Shown one piece after another: positions 6,147-39,581 of a stretch of 64,000 bases of DNA. The notes under the pieces were generated by a model. That model saw only the letters and a list, made by a program, of their open reading frames with translations. It searched no databases and was not told the DNA's origin. The DNA is taken from NCBI RefSeq assembly GCF_016862515.1, contig NZ_BONC01000029.1, positions 1 through 64,000 on the forward strand. The letters are read 5' to 3'. This stretch comes from Asanoa iriomotensis (GTDB lineage Bacteria > Actinomycetota > Actinomycetes > Mycobacteriales > Micromonosporaceae). Positions within the stretch are counted from its first letter, which is position 1, and each line of letters starts with the position of its first letter. The translations under genes were made by a program, and so were the position numbers.

Positions 6147-7208
6147 GTGTCCGGTCTGCCTTCCCTCGCGGTTGTCGGCGCGACCGGAGCCGTCGGCACG
6201 GTCATGTGCGAGCTGCTGTCGGCGCGCAAGAACGTGTGGGGCGAGATCCGCCTGCTGGCCTCGCCGCGGTCGGCGGGCAAGAAGGTCTACTGCCGCGGCG
6301 AGGAGCTGACGGTCCAGCCCCTGTCGGAGGAGTCGCTGGCCGGCGTCGACGTCGCGATGTTCGACGTGCCCGACGAGGTGTCGGCGGAGTGGGCACCGCG
6401 CGCGGCGGCCCTGGGCGCGGTCGCGGTCGACAACTCGGCCGCGTTCCGGATGGACCGCGACGTGCCGCTGGTGGTCCCGGAGATCAACCCGGAGCAGGTC
6501 CGCAACCGCCCGAAGGGCATCATCGCCAACGCGAACTGCACGACACTGACGATGATCGTGGCGATCGCCCCGCTGCATCGCGAATACGGTTTGCGCGAGC
6601 TGGTGCTGGCGTCCTACCAGGCGGTGTCGGGCGCGGGCCAGGTCGGCGTCGACACGCTGCACGACCAGCTGAGCAAGATCGCCGGAGACCGGGTGCTGGG
6701 TTCACGCTCGGGCAACGTCCGCCAGGCGGTGGGCGACGACCTGGGTCCTTTCCCGGCGCCGTTGGCTTTGAATGTCGTGCCATGGGCGGGTTCGCTGAAG
6801 GACGCGGGTTGGTCGTCGGAGGAGCTGAAGCTCCGCAACGAGTCCCGCAAGATCCTGGGCTTGCCCGATCTGAAGGTCTCGGCGACGTGCGTCCGGGTCC
6901 CGGTGGTGACGGGCCACTCGGTAGCGATCCACGCGGTCTTCGGCGCCGAGGTGACCTCGGAGGGCGCCCGTGAGGCGCTGCGCAACGCACCGAGCGTGAT
7001 CCTGGTCGACGACCCGGCGGCGGGCGAGTTCCCGATGCCGATCGACGCGGTGGGCACCGATCCGTCGTGGGTGGGGCGCATTCGACGGGCGATGGACGAC
7101 CCGCGGGCGTTGGACCTGTTCGTCACTGGTGACAACTTGCGTAAGGGTGCGGCTTTGAACACGGCCCAGATCGCGGAACTCGTCGCTGCGGAGCTAACGG
7201 CGAAGTAG
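6147..7208 (+). CDS. asd: Aspartate-semialdehyde dehydrogenase
   Basis: Reduces aspartyl phosphate to the semialdehyde, the step after LysC. The 353-residue protein has the N-terminal Rossmann motif VVGATGAVG, the catalytic-cysteine segment NANCTT, and the later conserved Gln in YQAVSGAGQ. Two GTG starts are possible: 6138 overlaps the lysC stop, but 6147 has GGGAGG at a proper 8-nt distance and gives the usual length. Either way it is translationally coupled to lysC. Confidence 0.95.
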
Positions 7209-23306: not shown

Positions 23307-23352
23307 TGGTCGGGGTGGCCGGATTTGAACCGACGACCTCTTCGTCCCGAAC
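23307..23352. repeat. attL core (46 bp)
   Basis: Identical to 39505-39550. It contains the tRNA-Pro 3' half from the anticodon loop to the CCA, without the 5' half, so this copy is a tRNA remnant rather than a functional gene. Confidence 0.95.
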
Positions 23353-24955: not shown

Positions 24956-25702
24956 ATGGCAGACGGGTCGGCAATTGAGTGGACTCAGGCCACCTGGAAC
25001 CCGACCACGGGATGTGATCGGATATCGGCTGGATGCGACAATTGTTACGCTTTGACCTTGTCCAAGCGCCTCAAGGCGATGGGTCAGGCGAAGTATCAGA
25101 ACGACGGGGATGCGCGAACCTCCGGGCCGGGCTTCGGTCTGACGGTGCACCGGGATGCGCTTGACATTCCCCGCAAGTGGCGCGCACCGCGCCTGGTGTT
25201 CGTGAATTCTATGAGCGATCTCTTTCACGGCAAAGTGCCCCTGCCGTTCATTCGGGAGGTTTTTGAGACCATGGAGGCCTGCCCGCAGCACACCTTTCAG
25301 GTTCTGACGAAGCGCGCTCGGCGCCTACGCCGACTCGCCCCCAATTTGCCTTGGCCAAAGAACGTGTGGATGGGCGTTTCGGTCGAGTCCAGCCGTGAGG
25401 CGCACCGGATTGACGAGTTGCGTGGCGTGCCGGCGGCGGTCCGGTTCCTCTCTTGCGAGCCCCTCTTGGCATCGCTCGGTCAGATCGACTTGAGCGGTAT
25501 TGGATGGGTGATTGCCGGCGGCGAAAGCGGACCCAACTATCGCCCGGTCGATGTGCGCTGGGTTGCGGAACTGCGCGATAGGTGCACTCAGGGACATGTT
25601 CCCTTCTTTTTTAAGCAATGGGGCGGTCGGACGCCGAAGGAAGCTGGTCGCAATCTGGACGGGCGTACCTGGGATGAGATGCCTGCCCGAGTAGCTGTTT
25701 AG
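24956..25702 (+). CDS. DUF5131 (phage Gp37/Gp68-like) three-Cys-motif protein
   Basis: The 248-residue protein has the three-cysteine signature Cys20, Cys27, Cys30 (GCDRISAGCDNCYA), reminiscent of a radical-SAM-like cluster site though with different spacing, and the family blocks VFVNSMSDLFHG, VLTKR, NVWMGVSVE and GGESGPNYRPV. A GGAGG site precedes the ATG. It overlaps tail-to-tail by 4 bp with the TcmP gene, its known genomic partner. Biochemical role is not established; nucleic acid modification is a guess. Confidence 0.88.
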   Translation: MADGSAIEWTQATWNPTTGCDRISAGCDNCYALTLSKRLKAMGQAKYQNDGDARTSGPGFGLTVHRDALDIPRKWRAPRLVFVNSMSDLFHGKVPLPFIREVFETMEACPQHTFQVLTKRARRLRRLAPNLPWPKNVWMGVSVESSREAHRIDELRGVPAAVRFLSCEPLLASLGQIDLSGIGWVIAGGESGPNYRPVDVRWVAELRDRCTQGHVPFFFKQWGGRTPKEAGRNLDGRTWDEMPARVAV

Positions 25703-26835
25703 TTGAACTCGGCCTGGTCCGCATCGCGGAGGTCAGCTTCAGAGTAGAATCTGACGGTGCATCCTTCGGGCCACGGAGTCGTCGCTTCGAGCGGCTCGAC
25801 TCTGAAAGCCAAGCCCGTCATGCGAAGTTCCTGGAGGCCTGCCCGCAGGAGCCTATCGGATTGGCCCGCCTGCATTGCATCGATCCGCATTTGCTGCCAC
25901 GTCTTCTCTTGCCCGGCATAGCCACGGAGTATCTCAACCATTGTCGACGTTATCGCAATGCCGTCGAAGAGGGTTGGTGCATCGATGGAAGCCGGAGATG
26001 CGCCCCGTCCTAAGACTGGGTCGATCCTGCGCTGCATCTTGGTCCAGCACTCAAGGCCCCGTTCCGCGTGCGTGAGAAAGACGAGATGGTATCGCGCAGT
26101 TTCATTCGGCACTCTTATCGCGAAGTAGCTAGCGTAGAGGCCTGTGGAACGCCAGTCGGAACAGTACGCCTCGACAAGGGCCGTCATCCCCTCCGGTTGG
26201 GATTGGTGGTCTAACACCGTTCGCCATGAGTTCGTTCCGAAGTGACGCTGCATCGCGGTTTGCCACGTGCTTACAGTCTTGCGCTGGTGCATCTCTTTAC
26301 TGAAGAACGAGATTATTGCCTCGTCGCGTGGCCCGCTATCTAGGCACGCTCTCACACTCTCCGCCGCGAGGTCTGCAGGGCCGTATGGGTCCAGCAACCA
26401 AAGAACCGGGTCCCCGTCATTTTCTCGATGGGTGTAGTCACGAAGCTTCTGGGCATTCTCGGCGAATGATCCGGGCGGCAGCACCCGCCATTTGAGTTGC
26501 GCAGCGGACGGCACCTTTTGTCGCTGCCGTTCCAGTTCGGCGGCTCGATCGGGTCGCTCCTCCAGTGAGAGGAGACGAAGGGTTCCCCGAAAGCGTTGGA
26601 GTCGTGAATGACCAAGAAGAGTTTTAGCCACGACCACAGATGAACCTGGGTCGCCTTGGCTGTATATTCCGGCGCCCGCAAACGCGTCGACTACCGTGGC
26701 GGTGTCGCGCGTCTGAAGAAAGACGGGAAGCCAGCAGTTTAAGTAATGGGCATACGAGCGGTGCTTGATAAATGTGTATGGGTCACTTGGGTAGATCGTT
26801 TGTTGCATCTGACTGCGACGACTCCGCAGGTGCAT
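25699..26835 (-). CDS. tcmP: Three-Cys-motif partner protein (TcmP family)
   Basis: The 378-residue protein has the TcmP opening YTFIKHRSYAHYLNCWLPVF and a methyltransferase-like glycine motif at Asp50 (VVDAFAGAG). A later LLDPYGP resembles motif IV of nucleic-acid methyltransferases. The C-terminal third may be a winged-helix domain. ATG at 26835 has GGAG at 6 nt. TcmP genes are defined by proximity to three-Cys-motif (DUF5131) genes; here the two are convergent with overlapping stops. Function is unknown; phage defence or modification is inferred from cargo context. Confidence 0.88.
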   Translation of the reverse strand: MHLRSRRSQMQQTIYPSDPYTFIKHRSYAHYLNCWLPVFLQTRDTATVVDAFAGAGIYSQGDPGSSVVVAKTLLGHSRLQRFRGTLRLLSLEERPDRAAELERQRQKVPSAAQLKWRVLPPGSFAENAQKLRDYTHRENDGDPVLWLLDPYGPADLAAESVRACLDSGPRDEAIISFFSKEMHQRKTVSTWQTAMQRHFGTNSWRTVLDHQSQPEGMTALVEAYCSDWRSTGLYASYFAIRVPNETARYHLVFLTHAERGLECWTKMQRRIDPVLGRGASPASIDAPTLFDGIAITSTMVEILRGYAGQEKTWQQMRIDAMQAGQSDRLLRAGLQELRMTGLAFRVEPLEATTPWPEGCTVRFYSEADLRDADQAEFN

Positions 26836-27683: not shown

Positions 27684-28085
27684 TTACCGTTCTTGCCTGC
27701 GGTCGAGTAGTTCTGGGAAGACAGGCTCCAAGACGCAGATCTCGTTGCCCCACGGGTCGCGCATCACCCAGAAGTCGAACCCGCGTGCCTGCTGGTGGTC
27801 GTAGCGGCGCGCGCCGAGGGTCTCAAGTCGCTGCACCTCAGCCTCGACGTCCTCCACCTCCAGGTCCAGGTGCATGCGCTCCTTCGACAACTTGGCGTCG
27901 GCCGTGTGCTGAAGTAGGACCCGGATCTCTGAGTCCGGTAGGCGTAGCCGTCGGTAGATGTGGCGGCTTTGGTCCGCCACGGGTTCCTCCGTGGCGTCGA
28001 GCGCCGCCGACCAGAACTGAACAGCTCCGTCCAGGTCGTCGCAGTCGATCACGAAATGACACACGCGACTCTTATGGGCGGTCAT
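27684..28085 (-). CDS. VOC (glyoxalase/bleomycin-resistance-like) protein
   Basis: The 133-residue protein has two beta-alpha-beta-beta-beta modules with likely metal ligands His in VCHFVID, His in MHLDLE and Glu in EICVLEP, and the DPWGNE loop. VOC proteins include glyoxalase I, ring-cleavage dioxygenases and antibiotic-binding proteins; the substrate here is open. ATG at 28085 overlaps the CutA stop by 4 bp, placing it last in the XRE-CutA-VOC operon. Confidence 0.85.
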   Translation of the reverse strand: MTAHKSRVCHFVIDCDDLDGAVQFWSAALDATEEPVADQSRHIYRRLRLPDSEIRVLLQHTADAKLSKERMHLDLEVEDVEAEVQRLETLGARRYDHQQARGFDFWVMRDPWGNEICVLEPVFPELLDRRQER

Positions 28086-28420
28086 GACTGCGACCCCGGC
28101 TCTCTGGTCTCCGAGATGATCCACGAGATGTACGTCGGGTTGCCGCTCTCGATCGGCCATGCGACGACGCAGGGGACTTCGTAGGGATGCCGCTCGTTCG
28201 TCAGGCGCACGATCTCGGAGACGTGGGCGGTCCTTGTGTGCAGTGCGACCCTCGCCTCTTGCACCTCGTTGACCTCGCCACGCCACCGAAAGACAGAGCT
28301 GATCTCGTTGATCGTGTGGCCGCCTGCACACAACCGCAGGTCGACCAACTCGCGAGCGAACGAAGCGAGCCAGTTTGGGTCCGGTGCCGTAATCACAACC
28401 TCGCAGACCTGTTCAGGCAC
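28082..28420 (-). CDS. CutA-like protein
   Basis: The 112-residue protein shows the CutA1 pattern: short strand VCEVVITAPDP, a helix with LASFARELV, the INEISSVFRWRGEV core and the terminal PYEVPCVVAWPIES...YISWI. CutA proteins form PII-like trimers and bind divalent metals. It is unusual cargo in an AICE. GTG at 28420 overlaps the upstream XRE stop by 8 bp and its stop overlaps the VOC start, indicating tight coupling. Confidence 0.88.
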   Translation of the reverse strand: MPEQVCEVVITAPDPNWLASFARELVDLRLCAGGHTINEISSVFRWRGEVNEVQEARVALHTRTAHVSEIVRLTNERHPYEVPCVVAWPIESGNPTYISWIISETREPGSQS

Positions 28421-29024
28421 GCGCCACCTCCGACGCCTTGAGTTCCTCGATCGTCGCAGTCGCTGTTTCCTGATCACGAGCCATGGCGCCCCAACCGGTG
28501 ACCACGCTGCCGTCGTAGCTGAGACCGACCCACCGGCCGGACATGTACTGACCGTGCGGGTGCAGCACGAAATACATCGTGCCCTTCGACCGGACGGCGC
28601 CGTCGGTGGCTGCATACCAGCCCATGACGATCTCGTTGTCCCACAGCCGCAGTTCGCCTCGCCAGTGGTAGCCGCCCTCTTCGACGTCGAGGCCCCGCGT
28701 GGTCGTCTCGACGTCGATCCGCTCGCCTTCCTGCCGGAATCGCACCTCTTGAAGCGTGACGATTTCCTCGCCGTCCTTGAAGGTCTGCCATGAAGCCCAC
28801 CAGTCCCCCGACAGGTGGATGCGGTGACTCGCGAGTCCCGCTAGCTCACCTACGGAGATGTCCAGGGCGTTAGCGATCGCGACCGCGACCGACAGGACGG
28901 GCTGCTGTTCGCCGGCCTCATATCGCCGGATTTGCCGGCGGTCGACGCCGGCCGCGTCGGCTAGCTCGGCCTGTGACATTCCAAGTTCTGACCTGCGTCG
29001 ACGCAGGACTTCCGCCATTTCCAC
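28413..29024 (-). CDS. XRE-type HTH regulator with C-terminal beta-rich domain
   Basis: The 203-residue protein starts with a classic XRE helix-turn-helix (MSQAELADAAGVDRRQIRRYEAGEQQP, residues about 14-40). The rest (about 68-195) is Trp/Gly-rich alternating sequence suggestive of a calycin-like beta-barrel that could bind a ligand. It heads an operon with CutA and VOC genes and faces the transfer genes across a six-site operator array. Probably it represses both itself and the transfer operon. GTG at 29024 is used; ATG at 29018 is possible. Confidence 0.87.
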   Translation of the reverse strand: MEMAEVLRRRRSELGMSQAELADAAGVDRRQIRRYEAGEQQPVLSVAVAIANALDISVGELAGLASHRIHLSGDWWASWQTFKDGEEIVTLQEVRFRQEGERIDVETTTRGLDVEEGGYHWRGELRLWDNEIVMGWYAATDGAVRSKGTMYFVLHPHGQYMSGRWVGLSYDGSVVTGWGAMARDQETATATIEELKASEVARA

Positions 29025-29037
29025 CTGCCCATTGTGT

Positions 29038-29160
29038 AGGACGTATCAGTCCTAGCCAAGGGACCCCTTGGTCACATCGGGACTCATTGGTCCTTGACTG
29101 GGACTCAACAGTCCCCATATCATCGGACTATCTAGTCCCATCAAGGGACTCATGAGTCAC
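29038..29160. promoter_or_regulatory. Array of six 16-bp palindromic operators
   Basis: Six copies of NGGAC-N6-GTCNN occur at 29038, 29060, 29079, 29100, 29124 and 29145; consensus GGGACTCANNAGTCCC. Start-to-start distances are 22, 19, 21, 24 and 21 bp, about two helical turns, so bound proteins would sit on one DNA face. The array fills almost the whole space between the divergent XRE operon and transfer operon. The XRE protein is the obvious binding candidate. Confidence 0.85.
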
Positions 29161-29176
29161 ACTGGAGGTGATGCAA

Positions 29177-30019
29177 GTGGCAGGAGCGAACCTCTTCGAC
29201 CGGCCGGGCACGGTCGCGGTCGTTGAGGCGCCGGTGTCTGCGGCGTACGCAAGGCGGGCACGCCTGGCTTTCGTTGGCGTGTCGCTGTTGGTGGCGGTGC
29301 TGACCGGCGCAGTGTCGGCGTTGTTCTGGCATCCACTGTTGGCGGTGGTCTTGGGCCTGGCTGCTGGCCTGGCCTGTGGCTGTGCGGCTGCGGCGCTGGT
29401 CTTCGTTTGGCCGGTGCTGCGGGCGCTATGGCGCTGGTCGTTCGAGCTAGCGGCGCTGACGGTACTGACGGTGGGTCCGGCTCTGCTGGTCAGGGCCGTC
29501 AACGTGTGGTCTGCGCTCACGATCGTGCTGGCGGTGTTGGTCCTCGCGTTCGCGGTGCGGCCGGTCCGGCGTCGGTTGTCGGCCTGGTCGTGGTGTCTGG
29601 TTGTTCGGCACCGGCTGCGGGTCGTGTTCGCGCAGCTCGTGCATTCGGCTTCGCGGTCATCGGGTGCGTTGCCGCTGATCCTGTGGGCGCGGCCTACTCC
29701 GGCCGGCGAGCGGGTCTGGGTGTGGCTTCGCCCGGGTCTGGATCTGTCTGACCTGGAGGGCAAGGCCGGCAAGGTCGCTGTGACCTGTTGGGCCGGTGAA
29801 GCCCGCGTGGTCCGGGCCTCGGCACGGTTCGCGGCGCTGGTCCGTGTGGACCTGACTCGTCGTGACCCGCTGGCCAACTTGGTGCCGTCTCCGTTGGCGG
29901 CGCTGCTCGCGCAGGTGCGCGAGCCCCGGCCATCGCTGTCTGCGGTGGTGTCCCCGGTCGGCCTGGACCTGGCCGACGTCCCCGAACCGGTGGAGCAGCC
30001 GCGGGCAGGTCGACGGTGA
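29177..30019 (+). CDS. AICE transfer membrane protein (N-terminal half of a split FtsK-like translocase)
   Basis: The 280-residue protein has four hydrophobic segments within about residues 25-140, then a soluble C-terminal region with [13 protein letters not shown]. In many actinobacterial elements a membrane part like this is fused to or paired with the FtsK/TraB ATPase; here the ATPase is a separate gene 0.5 kb downstream. GTG at 29177 has GGAGG at 8 nt; starts at 29168 or 29171 would be too close to that site. Its promoter lies under the operator array. Confidence 0.75.
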
Positions 30020-30074: not shown

Positions 30075-30557
30075 ATGGCAGCAGGAGACACCACGATCAC
30101 GGTGATCGGGAACCTGACCGATGACCCGGAGTTGCGGTTCACCCCGGCAGGGGCCGCCGTCGCGAAGTTCCGGGTGGCGTCCACGCCTCGGTTCATGGAC
30201 CGCGAGTCGGGGCAGTGGAAGGACGGCGAGCCGCTGTTCCTGACCTGCACGGCGTGGCGGGACATGGCCGAACACGTGGCCGAGTCCCTCACCCGGGGCA
30301 CGCGGGTGGTCGTCTACGGGCGGCTGCGCCTGTCCCGCTGGGAGGACAAGGACACCGGCGAGAAGCGGTCGATGTTCCAACTCGACGTGGACGAGATCGG
30401 CCCGTCACTGAAGTTCGCTCAGGCGAAGGTCACCAAGATGAACCGGGCACGGGCCTCCGACGGGTTCACCCCGGATCAGGTGCCGGACGACCCTTGGAAC
30501 ACCGCCACCCCGGCCAACACGGCGGGTTCGGCGGCTGAGTCCCGGCCGGCGGCGTGA
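30075..30557 (+). CDS. ssb: Single-stranded DNA-binding protein
   Basis: A 160-residue OB-fold protein: [28 protein letters not shown], and [27 protein letters not shown]. The usual acidic C-terminal tip (DDDIPF-like) is missing; it ends SRPAA. It would protect single strands made by RepSA-driven rolling-circle replication. AAGGAG precedes the ATG. Its stop overlaps the FtsK-like gene by 4 bp. Confidence 0.93.
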
Positions 30558-31453
30558 CCGCCATGCCCACGCTCGTCGCTGACACCGGACCGGGAAGCCA
30601 GCCGGTCACTCTTGGCCCGGTCCTGTCGATCTTCGACCCGGTGCATATCGGGATCGATGAGTTCGGGCAGCCGGTCCGGGTGCCGCTGATCTACCGGAAC
30701 ATGCTCATCGGCGGCGAGCCGGGCGCGGGCAAGTCGGCGTTGTTGAACGCGGTCGTCGCGCACGCGGCGCTGTCGTTGGACTGCCGGCTAGTCCTGCTCG
30801 ACGGCAAGCTGGTCGAGCTCGGGCAATGGCGGGCTTGCGCCGAACCGGGCGGGTTCGTCGGCCCTGACCTGGACGCCGCGAACAAGCTGTTGAAGCGGCT
30901 TCAGATCATGATGGACCGCCGGTACGCGTACCTAGTCGACTGCGAACGACGCAAAGTCGCCGCAGGCGATGCGTTCATGCCGTACGTGGTCGCGATCGAT
31001 GAGATCGCCTACTTCTCGGCCACGGTCGGTAAGAAGCAGGATCGCGAAGAGTTCGCGGCGCTGCTGCGGGACTTGGTCGCCCGGGGTCGTGCGGTCGGGA
31101 TCATCGTGATCGCGGCGACGCAGCGACCGTCCTCGGACATCATCCCCACCTCGTTGCGGGATCTGTTCGCGTGGCGGTTCGCGGGCCGGTGCACCAGCCA
31201 CTCAAGCTCCGACATTGTCCTCGGACACGGCTGGGCGCAACAGGGCTGGACAGCCAACAGCATCAGCCCCACCAACCCGGGTGTTGGTCTGCTGATCGCC
31301 GAGGGCGGCACCCCACAGCTCGTCAAGACCGCGTACCTGGACGACGCCACTTGCGCGGCGATCGCCCGCTACGCGGCCACTCTCCGCACCACCGTCAACC
31401 GCCAGGCTGCCACCGACACCGGCCAGCAGCCGGGCGCGGCAGACGCTGCCTGA
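30554..31453 (+). CDS. FtsK/SpoIIIE-like DNA translocase for conjugation (TraSA/TraB-like)
   Basis: The 299-residue ATPase has Walker [13 protein letters not shown], Walker [12 protein letters not shown], and the [25 protein letters not shown] segment typical of the family. AICE translocases move double-stranded DNA between mycelial cells. It lacks its own transmembrane helices, which the separate upstream membrane protein would supply. GTG at 30554 overlaps ssb. Confidence 0.92.
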
Positions 31454-34848: not shown

Positions 34849-35888
34849 CAACGACAAACAATCACGGTGAGCCGCGTCTGGCGTCGGTGGCGTCGTGGGC
34901 GGTGCTGGCGGCCTCGTTCGGGCTGTCCGCTACCACCTGGGTCGCCCTGGCCGAACTGGCCGGCTTCACCGCAACCCTCTCGATTGCCGATCTCGTGTTG
35001 CGGCTGGCGTGGCTGATGCCCGTCGCGGTTGACGGCTATGTCGTCGTCGCGCTGGTGCTGTGGATGTCCCCTGTCCCGCCGAAGGTCGCAGCGTTCGCGA
35101 AGAAGAACACCTACGGTGCGGCTGGTATCGGGATCGCCGCTCAGTCGGCGTACCACCTGCTGCACACCGCATCCACGACCGACCAACTCTGGCGCGTGGT
35201 CCTGGCCGCGATCGTCGGCGCTCTACCGCCTGCCGTCGCTGCCCTGGCCGTGCACATGCGCGCCCTGATCCGCCGGGAAGGCGCCAATACGCCGACCCCG
35301 GCACCGACCACATCCGTACCCGCCGCACCCGCCGTCACCGACGCCGGACCGGCCCTGACCCCAACCGTCACCGACCCGGTACCGCCGGTCCGGCAGGCAC
35401 CGCAACCGGTGCCCACCCCGGAACCGACCCCGGTCCCGGCAACGGTGACGGAGGCCCGGCCGCAGGTTCCGACTCCGGCCGAGGTCGCTTCCCGGATCAC
35501 CCCGACACCGACGGCTGGCACGGCCATCCGGCCGGCGACCGTTGACGAGCGGCGCACCGCGCCACCCCGACCCCACAAGGCACGTCCTGGTACCCCGGCA
35601 CCTGCGCTGGCACCGTCCGCCACTGACACTCGTGTCTCCGCGCCCGACGCTGCACAGCTCACCTTGCCGGTCGTATCACCGGACGTGTTCAACAGGGCCA
35701 CCGAGGCGGCACGCGCGTACCGCTCCGAACACGGCACGCCGATCACTGCTGGCAAGCTCGCCGTCGAGCTTCGGATCACATCGAAGGAAGCGGCTCAAGC
35801 CATCGCACAGATGGACCTGCTGCCCGATAGCCCGACCGAACCTGCTCCGACCGTCAACGGCAACCGTCCCGCACGGGCGGCCCGGTGA
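34845..35888 (+). CDS. DUF2637 membrane protein with Pro-rich linker and C-terminal helical domain (SpdB2-like)
   Basis: A 347-residue protein. Four transmembrane helices (about 15-130) with the DUF2637-type segment LAWLMPVAVDGYVVVALVLWM. A long Pro/Thr/Ala linker (about 145-265) follows, then a soluble domain of about 60 residues (FNRATEAARAYRSEH...LAVELRITSKEAAQAIAQM) that looks like a small HTH. DUF2637 proteins sit upstream of repSA in AICEs and are linked to plasmid spread. It overlaps repSA by 4 bp. Confidence 0.85.
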   Translation: MTTTNNHGEPRLASVASWAVLAASFGLSATTWVALAELAGFTATLSIADLVLRLAWLMPVAVDGYVVVALVLWMSPVPPKVAAFAKKNTYGAAGIGIAAQSAYHLLHTASTTDQLWRVVLAAIVGALPPAVAALAVHMRALIRREGANTPTPAPTTSVPAAPAVTDAGPALTPTVTDPVPPVRQAPQPVPTPEPTPVPATVTEARPQVPTPAEVASRITPTPTAGTAIRPATVDERRTAPPRPHKARPGTPAPALAPSATDTRVSAPDAAQLTLPVVSPDVFNRATEAARAYRSEHGTPITAGKLAVELRITSKEAAQAIAQMDLLPDSPTEPAPTVNGNRPARAAR

Positions 35889-37465
35889 CCGTCTCGACGC
35901 TGACCGTCGTACCCGAGACTCACGTCTCGGGTACGGCCCCATGCGCCGAGCCAACCACCATGGCGCCGCCGTGGTACGTGCGCTCCACCGACGTCCGTTT
36001 GCAGGCCATCGCTCGGGCGGTCCGTGACGACTACCCGGACTGGCTTGACCACGTTCGCTCGGCGGCGGCGTGCGTGCGCCCGGTCCGCCTCGCCGGCGCC
36101 ATCGCGACGGTGGAAGCCGACACCGGCCGGATCCTGTCCACGGTGTCGACGGCGACGATGCCGGACGGGGTGATCTACAAGGCGTGCGGGAACCGGCGGG
36201 AGACGGTCTGCCCCGCCTGCTCGCAGCGGTACAAGGGCGACGCGTACCAGGTCGTGCGGTCCGGGCTGATCGGCGGCAAGGGCGTGCCGGAGCAGGTCGC
36301 CACCCACCCGGCCGTGTTCCCGACCTTCACCGCGCCGTCGTTCGGGCCGGTCCACACCCGCCACATCAAACGCCACACCTGCGGGCGGCGGGCATCTTGC
36401 GACTGCCGCCCGGAACCCTGCCACCCCCGCCGCGACGCCGCGTGGTGTGAACACGGCCGGCGGCTGGTCTGCTTCGCCCGCCACGCAGACAGTGACCGCG
36501 CCCTAGGTACGCCGTTGTGTCTGGACTGCTACGACCACGATGCCCAGGTCGTGTGGAACCTGCAGGCTGGGGAACTCTGGCGCCGGACCACCATCGCGAT
36601 CAACCGGTACATGCGGCGGCTGGCCCGCGAGCGGGGGATTCCTGACGTCCAGGTCGTCACCGTGCGGGACGGGAAGGTCCGGGTCCGCAGTGTGGCGCCG
36701 TTCCGGCTCTCGTTCGGCAAAGCCGCCGAGATGCAGCGCCGAGCCGCGGTTCACTTCCACGCCATCATCCGTCTTGACGGCTTCGACCCCGACGACCGAG
36801 ACGCGATCCTCCCGCCTCCGGCCGGACTCGACGCGGGCGACCTGAAAGCGGCGGTGGACCACGCAGCGGGGACGGTGGGGTTCACGACCGGCGACCACCC
36901 GGCACGACCCGAAGGTTGGCCGATCGCCTGGGGTCCGCAGACCCTCACCAAACTGATCACCGTCGCGGCCGACGGTGAGGTCACCGATGGCATGGTCGCT
37001 GCGTACCTCGCGAAGTACGCCACCAAGTCGACGGAGATCACGGGTCACGCCTCCAGCCGCCTGAACGACGACACGATCGGCGTCTACGCCGACCCGGACG
37101 GCACCCACACCGAACGCCTCGTAGAAGCGTGCTGGATCCTCGGCCGGCCCAGCGACTGGCGACGCCTACGACGCTGGGCACACATGCTCGGCTTCGGCGG
37201 CCACTTCCTCACCAAGTCCCGCCGCTACTCGGTCACCTTCACCGTCCTACGCGCCGAACGCGCCACCTGGCAACGCGTCCAAAACAGCGGCCCCGAGGTC
37301 ACCGAACCCGGCGAGGAACCGACGACCCTAGTCGTCAACTTCCTTCAGTTCGTTGGTGCCGGGTGGCATACGACCGCTGACGCCCTGATGGCCAACACAT
37401 CCGCAGCGCTCGCTAGAGAACATCAACAACTCGCCCGCACGGACCTAGTAGCCCTGGCTGCGTAA
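35885..37465 (+). CDS. repSA: Rolling-circle replication initiator RepSA
   Basis: The 526-residue protein is the size of the pSAM2 RepSA family. It has a zinc-binding-like cysteine block (CPACSQRYKGDAYQ and CxC, C...H pairs, about 105-200). The HUH motif is His290-Phe-His292 (AAVHFHAIIRLDG), and the candidate nicking tyrosines are Tyr374 and Tyr378 (YLAKYATKS). It would nick the element's replication origin after excision. GTG start overlaps the DUF2637 gene. Confidence 0.94.
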   Translation: MTVSTLTVVPETHVSGTAPCAEPTTMAPPWYVRSTDVRLQAIARAVRDDYPDWLDHVRSAAACVRPVRLAGAIATVEADTGRILSTVSTATMPDGVIYKACGNRRETVCPACSQRYKGDAYQVVRSGLIGGKGVPEQVATHPAVFPTFTAPSFGPVHTRHIKRHTCGRRASCDCRPEPCHPRRDAAWCEHGRRLVCFARHADSDRALGTPLCLDCYDHDAQVVWNLQAGELWRRTTIAINRYMRRLARERGIPDVQVVTVRDGKVRVRSVAPFRLSFGKAAEMQRRAAVHFHAIIRLDGFDPDDRDAILPPPAGLDAGDLKAAVDHAAGTVGFTTGDHPARPEGWPIAWGPQTLTKLITVAADGEVTDGMVAAYLAKYATKSTEITGHASSRLNDDTIGVYADPDGTHTERLVEACWILGRPSDWRRLRRWAHMLGFGGHFLTKSRRYSVTFTVLRAERATWQRVQNSGPEVTEPGEEPTTLVVNFLQFVGAGWHTTADALMANTSAALAREHQQLARTDLVALAA

Positions 37466-37519
37466 GTCGATTCACTGTCAAACCCGCCTTGACACCCGAT
37501 CGGAGAGGAACCAGCGAGC

Positions 37520-37849
37520 GTGGACAGGCAAACGTCGGCTCCGACGACGTTTTACCGCCCGGCCGAGGTGGCTGAGCGGTTGCGCTGCTCCGTGTGGTGG
37601 GTCAAGGAACAGGCAAGGCGGCGGCGCATTCCGTACTGCTGGATCGGCGGCAGCTACAGGTTCACCGAAGAGCACATCAGCGAGATCGCCCGCCTCTTCG
37701 AAGTCGAACCGCTCGACGTATCTACCTCGGTCCCACGCCGCCCACAGACGGTCAGACCGGCGACTCCTACGAACGGTGAGCCGGTCGTGCAGCTCAATGC
37801 ACGCATCCCACGTCGCGCCCGCACCAGTACGCCGCACGCGGCGGCGTGA
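37520..37849 (+). CDS. xis: Excisionase-like HTH protein
   Basis: A 109-residue protein with an AlpA/excisionase HTH: FYRPAEVAERLRCSVWWVKEQARRRRIPYCWIGGSYRF. Its position directly before int is standard for AICE xis. GGAGAGG lies before the GTG start. Confidence 0.9.
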   Translation: MDRQTSAPTTFYRPAEVAERLRCSVWWVKEQARRRRIPYCWIGGSYRFTEEHISEIARLFEVEPLDVSTSVPRRPQTVRPATPTNGEPVVQLNARIPRRARTSTPHAAA

Positions 37850-37872
37850 CCGAAGAAAGGAGGCAGCTACCA

Positions 37873-39402
37873 ATGGGGTACGCCGAAAAACGCGGAGACT
37901 ACTGGCGTGGCCGGTACAAGGTCGGTCCTGGCAAGTACGACACCGTCAAGGACTCGTCCGGCGCCACGCTCCGCTTCCGCACTCGCCGGGAGGCCGAGCA
38001 GGCGGCCAACGACGCTGAGGCCAAGGTCCGGGCCGGCACCCGTCGGCGCGACCCGGCGGCGCGCCGCGTGTCGTTCGGTGAGTACGTGAACCGCTGGTAT
38101 GCGGCGCTGGATCTGGCGGCCTCGACCATGCAGAACTACCGGCGTCACATCGAGGAGCACTTGCTGCCCACCTTCGAAAGGGTGGCGGTGGCCGATATCC
38201 TGCCGTTCGACGTGGCCGCTTGGGAGAAGCGTGAGCGGGCCGCCGGCTACGCCGAGTCGAGCATCAAGACCTGGCGGTCGACTCTGCACCTGATCCTTGC
38301 TGACGCGGTTGAGGAAGGGCTGCGCGACTCCAACCCGGCGTCGCGCCGTCGCGGCCGGGGGAAGCGGGCGGGTCGGTCGCGCACTCGGGGTCCGGAGAAG
38401 GTCGTGACAACGGCACTGGGCGTCCTGCTCATCGCGGAACGCGCAGCCCTGCTCTCCGGTCGGGATGACGAGTTCGCCGCGATCATCACTAAGGGGTTCA
38501 CCGGGATGCGTTGGGGTGAGCTGGTGGGACTGGAAACTAGGTACCTCCGCCCGGCCGGGGTTCGCGTCGAATGGCAGCTATATGAACTCGACACGGGCGA
38601 GCTGCGCCGCTGCCCACCGAAAGATGACTCACACCGCACGATCGACCTGCCTGGGTGGCTGAGCGGCCTCATCGCCGACCACGTCGCCAAGGTCGCTCCC
38701 AAGCCCTGCGCCTGCCATGGGCTGACCTACGCCTTCCGTGGCTACGGCGTCGCCAACTCGACGGCCAGGCGCTCGGGCGTGCGGTTGGTCGATGTGGCTC
38801 GCCGGGCTGGTGTGTCGGTGGGGACGGTCTCGGCGGCGTTGAATCGGCCGGAGTCTCTGCCGGAGGCGACCCGGGCGCGGGTGGAAGCGGCTGCTGCCGA
38901 TCTCGGCTACGTGCATGGTGGTCCGGCCGGAGACCCGGCGGCGCATTGGCGGCGTAACGGCTTCGCGACCTGGTTGTTTCAGCCGGCCGCGTCGGGCCGC
39001 TACCCGAGGAAGGCGCCACAAGTCGCGCGGCCTGTCCCAGTGCTCGCCGAGCCGTGGCCGGGTATCCCTGTGCGTGGTCGGAACGCGTCCGGGCGAGCTG
39101 ACGCCTGCTGGGTGTCGATAGCGGCGGGGCTGACTCCACACGGGCTCCGTCACACCCACAAGACCCTGATGGAGGAGCTGGGCACCCCGCCCAAGCTGAT
39201 GGATGAGCGGATGGGGCACGAGGACGGATCGGTTCAGGCTCGGTACTCGCACGTCACCGCCGGGATGCGGGTCAGGCTTCTCGACGGCCTCACGGCGGCC
39301 TGGCTTGGCGCGCTGGACGCCCGGCTGACGTTCGCTCCAGGTTCGCCGGTCGCTGCCCTGGATCGCTTGCTGGAAGCCCGGCGGGGAGAGGTGGGGAGAT
39401 GA
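37873..39402 (+). CDS. int: Tyrosine recombinase (AICE integrase) with internal LacI-type HTH
   Basis: The 509-residue integrase has an SAM-like core-binding domain (about 60-160) and a catalytic domain with Arg213 (GMRWGE), Lys in PPKDDSHRTI, His423-Arg426 (HGLRHTH), His449 (MGHEDG) and Tyr458 (ARYSHV). Between the Lys and HxxR blocks, residues about 304-348 form a LacI-type headpiece (VDVARRAGVSVGTVSAALNRP). ATG at 37873 has AAAGGAGG at 9 nt; a GTG at 37846 overlapping xis is possible. Catalyses insertion at tRNA-Pro. Confidence 0.94.
   Translation: MGYAEKRGDYWRGRYKVGPGKYDTVKDSSGATLRFRTRREAEQAANDAEAKVRAGTRRRDPAARRVSFGEYVNRWYAALDLAASTMQNYRRHIEEHLLPTFERVAVADILPFDVAAWEKRERAAGYAESSIKTWRSTLHLILADAVEEGLRDSNPASRRRGRGKRAGRSRTRGPEKVVTTALGVLLIAERAALLSGRDDEFAAIITKGFTGMRWGELVGLETRYLRPAGVRVEWQLYELDTGELRRCPPKDDSHRTIDLPGWLSGLIADHVAKVAPKPCACHGLTYAFRGYGVANSTARRSGVRLVDVARRAGVSVGTVSAALNRPESLPEATRARVEAAAADLGYVHGGPAGDPAAHWRRNGFATWLFQPAASGRYPRKAPQVARPVPVLAEPWPGIPVRGRNASGRADACWVSIAAGLTPHGLRHTHKTLMEELGTPPKLMDERMGHEDGSVQARYSHVTAGMRVRLLDGLTAAWLGALDARLTFAPGSPVAALDRLLEARRGEVGR

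Positions 39403-39504: not shown

Positions 39505-39581
<77 letters not shown>

Follow-up and report, generated by a model that had tools for sequence, protein, structure and literature searches.

A six-operator array beside an XRE/beta-barrel gene as the putative control region of a pSAM2-type AICE in Asanoa iriomotensis

Six palindromes of the GGAC-N6-GTCC type were found at positions 29038 to 29160 of the window (the whole 64,000-nucleotide stretch analyzed, on contig 29 of the 8.57-Mb, 187-contig genome of Asanoa iriomotensis), between the divergent XRE gene and transfer operon of an AICE. Judging from the sequence comparisons reported here, the array is very probably the operator region of a self-contained cassette, composed of the operators, an XRE/beta-barrel repressor, and a CutA1-family protein, which would control this pSAM2-type element by autoregulated occlusion.

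RESULTS

The element and its operator array

The array lies in a 16.2-kb AICE bounded by identical 46-bp repeats, one of them within tRNA-Pro (Table 1). The element is integrated at a tRNA 3' end between direct att repeats and carries genes for Int, Xis, RepSA, and an FtsK-like pump, the features that characterize the pSAM2 type. The AICE context proposed in the earlier note was therefore borne out by RepSA, Xis, and Int and by the tRNA-Pro att repeats. The available text on pACPL of Actinoplanes places that element likewise in a proline tRNA gene (PMC3364876).

Table 1. Coordinates of the array and of the surrounding AICE features in the window
Feature	Position	Strand	Matrix score	Remarks
att repeat, 46 bp	23307..23352	.		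identical to 39505-39550
Glyoxalase/VOC-family gene	27684..28100	-		third in XRE operon
CutA1-family gene	28082..28408	-		directly 3' of XRE; presumed GTG start; Pfam CutA1, E 6.4e-27
XRE repressor gene (putative)	28413..29024	-		Cro/CI-type HTH (HTH_3), predicted 8-stranded beta-barrel, C-terminal helix
Operator 1 AGGACGTATCAGTCCT	29038..29053		18.6	between -35-like TTGGCT and -10-like CACAAT of presumed XRE promoter
Operator 2 GGGACCCCTTGGTCAC	29060..29075		9.6	weakest of six
Operator 3 GGGACTCATTGGTCCT	29079..29094		16.7	abuts transfer -35
Operator 4 GGGACTCAACAGTCCC	29100..29115		16.7	occupies transfer promoter spacer
Operator 5 CGGACTATCTAGTCCC	29124..29139		18.0	at expected transfer-operon transcription start
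Operator 6 GGGACTCATGAGTCAC	29145..29160		13.6	immediately 5' of SD
Transfer promoter TTGACT-18-TATCAT	29094..29123	+		sole promoter-like match in 28950-29250 (shuffles: mean 0.1)
SD of first transfer gene	29164..29170	+
First transfer-operon gene	29177..30019	+		no Pfam match; hydrophobic by eye; homologue in sibling AICE L127
SSB and FtsK/TraSA-like DNA pump genes	30080..31453	+
RepSA, Xis, tyrosine integrase genes	35885..39402	+
att repeat in tRNA-Pro (39505-39581, -)	39505..39550	.

The array takes up 123 of the approximately 152 bp separating the XRE start (29024) from the first transfer gene, whose GTG is at 29177, with start-to-start steps between its 16-mers of 22, 19, 21, 24, and 21 bp. 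Four copies of the common core GGAC-N6-GTCC are exact, and the sites at 29060 and 29145 each deviate from it by one base in one half. A site matrix trained on 30 relatives, with the window excluded, recovered all six sites (scores of 9.6 to 18.6), while no window position outside the array scored 12 or more. Six sites scoring at least 9 fell within 130 bp, compared with a maximum of two in any of 100 shuffled windows. Two further candidates were rejected: one within the XRE gene (28824-28839; score, 7.9) scored lower than several window matches elsewhere, and one near xis (37441; score, 10.7) was one of four scores of at least 10 outside the array. The six palindromes 19 to 24 bp apart that the earlier note had described in this divergent gap were thus recovered both in the sequence and with the relatives' matrix. 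The longer 16-bp consensus proposed there fared differently: it fits only the site at 29100 exactly and, with up to three mismatches allowed, gave 10 matches across the window versus 8.0 expected, i.e., no enrichment, and it was replaced by GGAC-N6-GTCC.

Genome-wide, single copies of GGAC-N6-GTCC were found at 510 places, versus 639 for the reversed control, and hence were not enriched. Pairs of exact copies 3 to 13 bp apart gave two matches in the window's genome, both within the array (reversed control, one match). Across 200 genomes of the family, 77 had some close pairs, often no more than the control, and among the matches listed, those on G000, G084 contig 133, G088 (1323020-1323077), and G107 were XRE loci. 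As for the random genome-wide spread that the earlier note named as a refuting condition, single copies were scattered through the window's genome, and close exact pairs occurred in the array only.

It had also been proposed that the sites lie on one DNA face. In the window, phase coherence (R) was 0.73 at 10.5 bp per turn, a value reached by 2.4% of random gap sets (16 to 31 bp), but mean R was 0.43 over all arrays with at least five sites and no gap above 35 bp, the window included. The 97 adjacent steps with gaps of up to 35 bp averaged 22.5 ± 1.9 bp, or about 44 degrees per step. The case for a one-face arrangement is weak, and the phasing is not conserved across arrays.

Conservation of the array in relatives

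The XRE protein had 20 relatives in one genome scan. A match was present in 21 of 354 genomes of the family and in 18 of 394 genomes of the class, the window's own included in both counts; 13 of the latter 18 matched via the barrel only. Of the profile matches with an E value of ≤1e-80 (46 rows), 13 were removed because their upstream regions were nearly identical and two because they were additional copies of the window, which left a set of 31 loci (window included); L021 and the weaker matches L076 to L090 lie outside this set. In the 180 bp upstream of the 30 relatives (window excluded), GGAC-N6-GTCC was the commonest 4-base gapped palindrome, with 69 copies in 28 of the 30 regions, compared with no more than 6 copies of any palindrome in 100 shuffles. 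The runner-up, GTCC-N9-GGAC (23 copies in the 30 regions), probably represents the gap between adjacent sites.

Site positions were nearly constant among the loci. Six sites were present in, e.g., L002, L003, L006 to L008, L026, and L027, four in each of the five Pseudonocardia loci kept, and up to seven per array at a threshold of 5; several arrays had three sites only, or long gaps. XRE loci with arrays were found in four actinobacterial families (a tree of the XRE proteins, in which many forks were weak, served for family names only). Two loci, L012 and L020, carried the XRE gene with a single weak site each (scores of 6.8 and 9.8). A divergent HTH at L012 was considered and dropped; the recognition helix there resembles those of the others, so an XRE gene without an array does exist. 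Conversely, sites scoring 10.5, 14.1, and 20.2 were found at L021, which has kept the HTH and lost the barrel. Eleven genomes of another family (L076 to L086) had a related barrel in open frames of 300 to 492 aa, joined to an HTH of a different kind, and site clusters were absent from these 11 loci.

Outside the arrays, the loci of 18 relatives contained 12 sites scoring at least 11 in 205,766 bp (0.58 per 10 kb, versus 0.39 in shuffled windows), six of which fell within a single conserved part of the XRE coding sequence (6 of the 18 loci; position 6378-6384, in L017 2748). These six overlap codons of a conserved WDN stretch, are probably coding, and were rejected as operators. With the off-array density near that of shuffled sequence and half of the sites on this stretch, a second target was not found in these loci. 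The three matches to the XRE protein in viral contigs and those among the matches listed in phage records (20 of 21) covered the HTH only. Among plasmids, 18 records matched, five of them over at least 80% of the query at 31 to 40% identity.

Promoters overlapped by the operators

In the transfer direction, the only promoter-like sequence in the gap holds operator 4 in its spacer (Table 1). In 24 of the 31 loci, TTGAC in the transfer direction (GTCAA on the other strand) lies immediately next to an operator core. The same scan of 28950-29250 found no promoter on the XRE strand. An operator is centered 18 to 31 bp 5' of the XRE start in 24 of the 31 loci, and the operators before this start have a weak TTG ahead of them (62, 83, and 54%) and are followed by a partly conserved segment that ends in AT. 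From this weak conservation, and from hexamers picked by eye (TTGGCT and CACAAT), we infer an XRE promoter with an operator in its spacer; the XRE mRNA would probably be leaderless. The coverage of both promoters by the XRE protein that the earlier note inferred would fit these overlaps of the array, with the transfer promoter on one side and with conserved sequence ahead of the XRE gene on the other. With regard to a multioperator layout of the ImmR type, six sites and the overlap with the transfer promoter were observed, and the XRE promoter is presumed.

The XRE protein

The regulator encoded at the window has a Cro/CI-type HTH domain (HTH_3), and its barrel part had no match in Pfam. An AlphaFold2 model (mean pLDDT, 90; pTM, 0.64) consisted of the HTH, eight strands, and a C-terminal helix. 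Structure matches of the HTH were P22 c2, 434 Cro, SinR, and ImmR, and those of the predicted barrel were designed barrels, Cap15, a quinohemoprotein domain, and nitrobindin. The beta-barrel C terminus suggested earlier is thus predicted by AlphaFold2, and its fold resembles ligand-binding barrels, Cap15 among them. Cap15 is a cyclic-dinucleotide receptor of CBASS; the match of the window barrel to it is one of predicted fold, at 12 to 14% identity, and designed barrels give matches just as good. The model therefore makes a ligand for the barrel plausible but does not point to any particular one.

Exchange of the repressor block in sibling elements

A second AICE in the same genome (L127, on G000 contig 110) has an alike transfer operon, preceded by a GntR-UTRA (KorSA-like) gene in place of XRE. 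Amino acid identity to the window was 77% for T1 and SSB, 88% for FtsK, 50% for the product of the DUF6197 gene, and 67% (partial) for RepSA, and DNA homology begins at window position 29164, which is the Shine-Dalgarno sequence. No site scoring at least 9 with the relatives' matrix was found across the 10.95 kb of L127. An inverted repeat, GACTCGT...ACGAGTC, was spotted by eye just 5' of its transfer operon.

We also sampled 20 further sibling operons without this XRE gene, as stretches of 5 to 6 kb from the best-scoring genomes, leaving out G060 (which has this XRE), second matches per genome, and G030, which ranked above the remaining untaken genomes. No array was present in any of the 20, which had at most one site scoring at least 9 per 130 bp, and a related GntR gene was found in seven of them. 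An upstream scan of 29 FtsK relatives was discarded as a control, as its 1,500-bp flank often missed the region, even in the known positives L099 and L122. Among relatives of the XRE protein, the XRE block adjoins differing genes; in L006, L009, L011, and L016, the nearest window-like gene is RepSA.

In the sequences compared, the array goes with the XRE gene and not with the transfer operon. This agrees with the assignment of the array to the adjacent XRE regulator in the earlier note, the arrays occurring with the XRE gene and being absent from L127 and from the 20 sibling operons lacking it. A natural reading would be that transfer operons of this kind can be preceded by either of two interchangeable repressor blocks, the XRE block or a GntR (KorSA-like) one. 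The GntR HTH plus UTRA combination of KorSA was found in the L127 regulator, and the window regulator has HTH_3 instead. Phage immunity regions provide an analogy for exchangeable repressor blocks, and such an exchange should let related elements differ in their presumed immunity.

CutA1 and other companion genes

CutA1 directly follows XRE in 29 of the 31 loci, the two exceptions being the array-poor L012 and L020. The window gene is a full-length member of the family (PF03091, positions 5 to 97 of 99) with relatives in the PDB, but it is placed in the regulator operon of a mobile element. One to four CutA1 genes were found in 75 of 101 genomes of the window's family and none in 26 (E value, 0.001); the window's genome has this one only. 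Because CutA1 genes are so few in these genomes, the adjacency of XRE and CutA1 is not due to chance. L021 has sites and lacks a CutA1 match, and therefore the link between CutA1 and the array is not a strict one. The VOC gene adjoins XRE or CutA1 in four of the 31 loci only (window, L002, L006, and L020). Both the regular CutA1 companion and the GntR block exchange in the sibling element had been missed in the earlier note.

A distant CutA1 match (26 to 27%) lies 5' of the transfer operon in three of the 20 sibling operons (L139 to L141). At L139 (2618-3184), it is part of a 188-aa protein in which an HTH_17-like N terminus (E value, 3e-5, just under the Pfam cutoff) precedes the CutA1 domain; the neighboring 438-aa protein has a start that looks XRE-like by eye and no Pfam HTH match. 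This HTH_17-CutA1 protein, encoded among the regulatory genes of a different AICE lineage, would fit the two-part sensor considered in the Discussion, and CutA1 may have a regulatory role at the window locus. In the accessible part of one report, an AICE CutA1 (FeuI6863) was read as possible heavy-metal resistance (PMC3218068), and in that of another, CutA was unlinked to metal tolerance in a cyanobacterium (PMC7694984).

DISCUSSION

In the mechanism that we propose, dimers of the XRE HTH would bind GGAC-N6-GTCC, and adjacent dimers about two helical turns apart, possibly cooperating, would cover both divergent promoters, with one operator between the transfer -35 and -10 and one in a like place 5' of the XRE gene. 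RNA polymerase would thereby be excluded from the transfer operon, and the repressor would hold down its own production. Once the barrel, perhaps together with CutA1, sensed a signal, the DNA would be freed and transfer would start. It is doubtful, if conceivable, that the barrel and the PII-like CutA1 form a two-part sensor of a small nucleotide-type signal, jointly releasing the six-site repression; if they did, CutA1 would gain a defined role as a regulator of mobile-element transfer.

The XRE protein could instead be a dual regulator, repressing transfer while activating or switching the promoter of its own gene through the distal operators, a behavior known from lambda CI and RcoLS20. Divergent genes with operators throughout the gap fit such a regulator, the lack of a strong XRE promoter in our scan would suit a need for activation, and RcoLS20, in the available text, stimulates its own promoter (PMC4207663). 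The operator centered close to the XRE start in most loci favors occlusion, however, and we regard dual regulation as improbable. That a host-encoded factor rather than the neighboring XRE protein binds the array is more improbable by far: another dimeric protein could read the motif, but close exact pairs in the window's genome occur only in the array, and arrays occur alongside the XRE gene in members of four actinobacterial families and are absent from the 21 sibling operons lacking it. Least credible of all is a function in cis, with the repeats serving transfer or replication (as clt/TraB repeats or iterons). Loci of the clt/TraB-repeat type do occur in Streptomyces plasmids, and clustered repeats here adjoin transfer genes. 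The sites, however, are palindromes within a promoter, they track the regulator and not the DNA pump or RepSA, and the sibling element L127, with an alike pump and Rep, has none. Occlusion by the XRE protein thus remains the reading that we prefer.

Several features of this arrangement have counterparts in other conjugative systems. The available portions of two reports describe six binding regions for ImmR of ICEBs1, three near each of two divergent promoters about 130 bp apart (PMC4207663, PMC8960796). ICEBs1 (ImmR/ImmA) of Bacillus subtilis and the window have in common an HTH repressor (putative at the window), an integrative conjugative element, six operators (predicted at the window), and a partner gene in the operon, but the ImmA-like metallopeptidase partner is absent at the window, where the neighbors of XRE match the CutA1 and VOC families. 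As ImmR already has six sites, the view that six sites make an unusual design was not supported. RcoLS20 of pLS20, as described in the portion available, is similarly an HTH repressor whose operators cluster at divergent promoters of conjugation genes, but it uses two operators 75 bp apart, a DNA loop, and a switch set by quorum sensing (PMC4207663). According to the accessible text on KorSA of pSAM2, this GntR-HutC AICE repressor binds its own promoter and acts through pra, and two sites are described for its relative SCO3932, in the intergenic region of a divergent gene pair (PMC8584621). Both differ from the window regulator in family (GntR versus XRE), and SCO3932 differs in its two sites versus six; at L127, a KorSA-like gene holds the very place of XRE.

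A literature search over titles and abstract openings, with few subscription journals covered, returned no description of such an array or of an XRE-CutA1 pair. What is new to us is the cassette itself, in which a barrel repressor is combined with its motif and a CutA1 partner in an exchangeable block; an arrangement of six operators at divergent promoters was already known. In the portions of the literature available, AICE control has so far been mainly of the KorSA/Pra type, and the present cassette (array, XRE-barrel, and CutA1) is a recognizable AICE repressor cassette with a searchable operator. The pair of elements in this genome, which are alike in their transfer genes and differ in their repressor blocks, allows a test of whether regulators are swapped to escape mutual repression, and the regular association of XRE with CutA1 provides a tractable setting in which to probe CutA1 function.

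Three minor observations concern other genes of the element and pump matches in other genomes. Matches to the FtsK-like pump at 70 to 71% identity, each with one in-frame TGA, were present in five genomes of the window's family (L110 to L114). The stretch 24956-26835 of the AICE holds a DUF5131 gene (+) beside an opposite-strand gene (25699-26835) matching the PADLOC candidate defense families PDC-M30/PDC-M41, a pair that is possible defense cargo. The tyrosine integrase (37846-39402, +) has a LacI-type HTH (PF00356, aa 314 to 356; E value, 2.5e-13) between its integrase parts and perhaps binds DNA via this inserted repressor domain.
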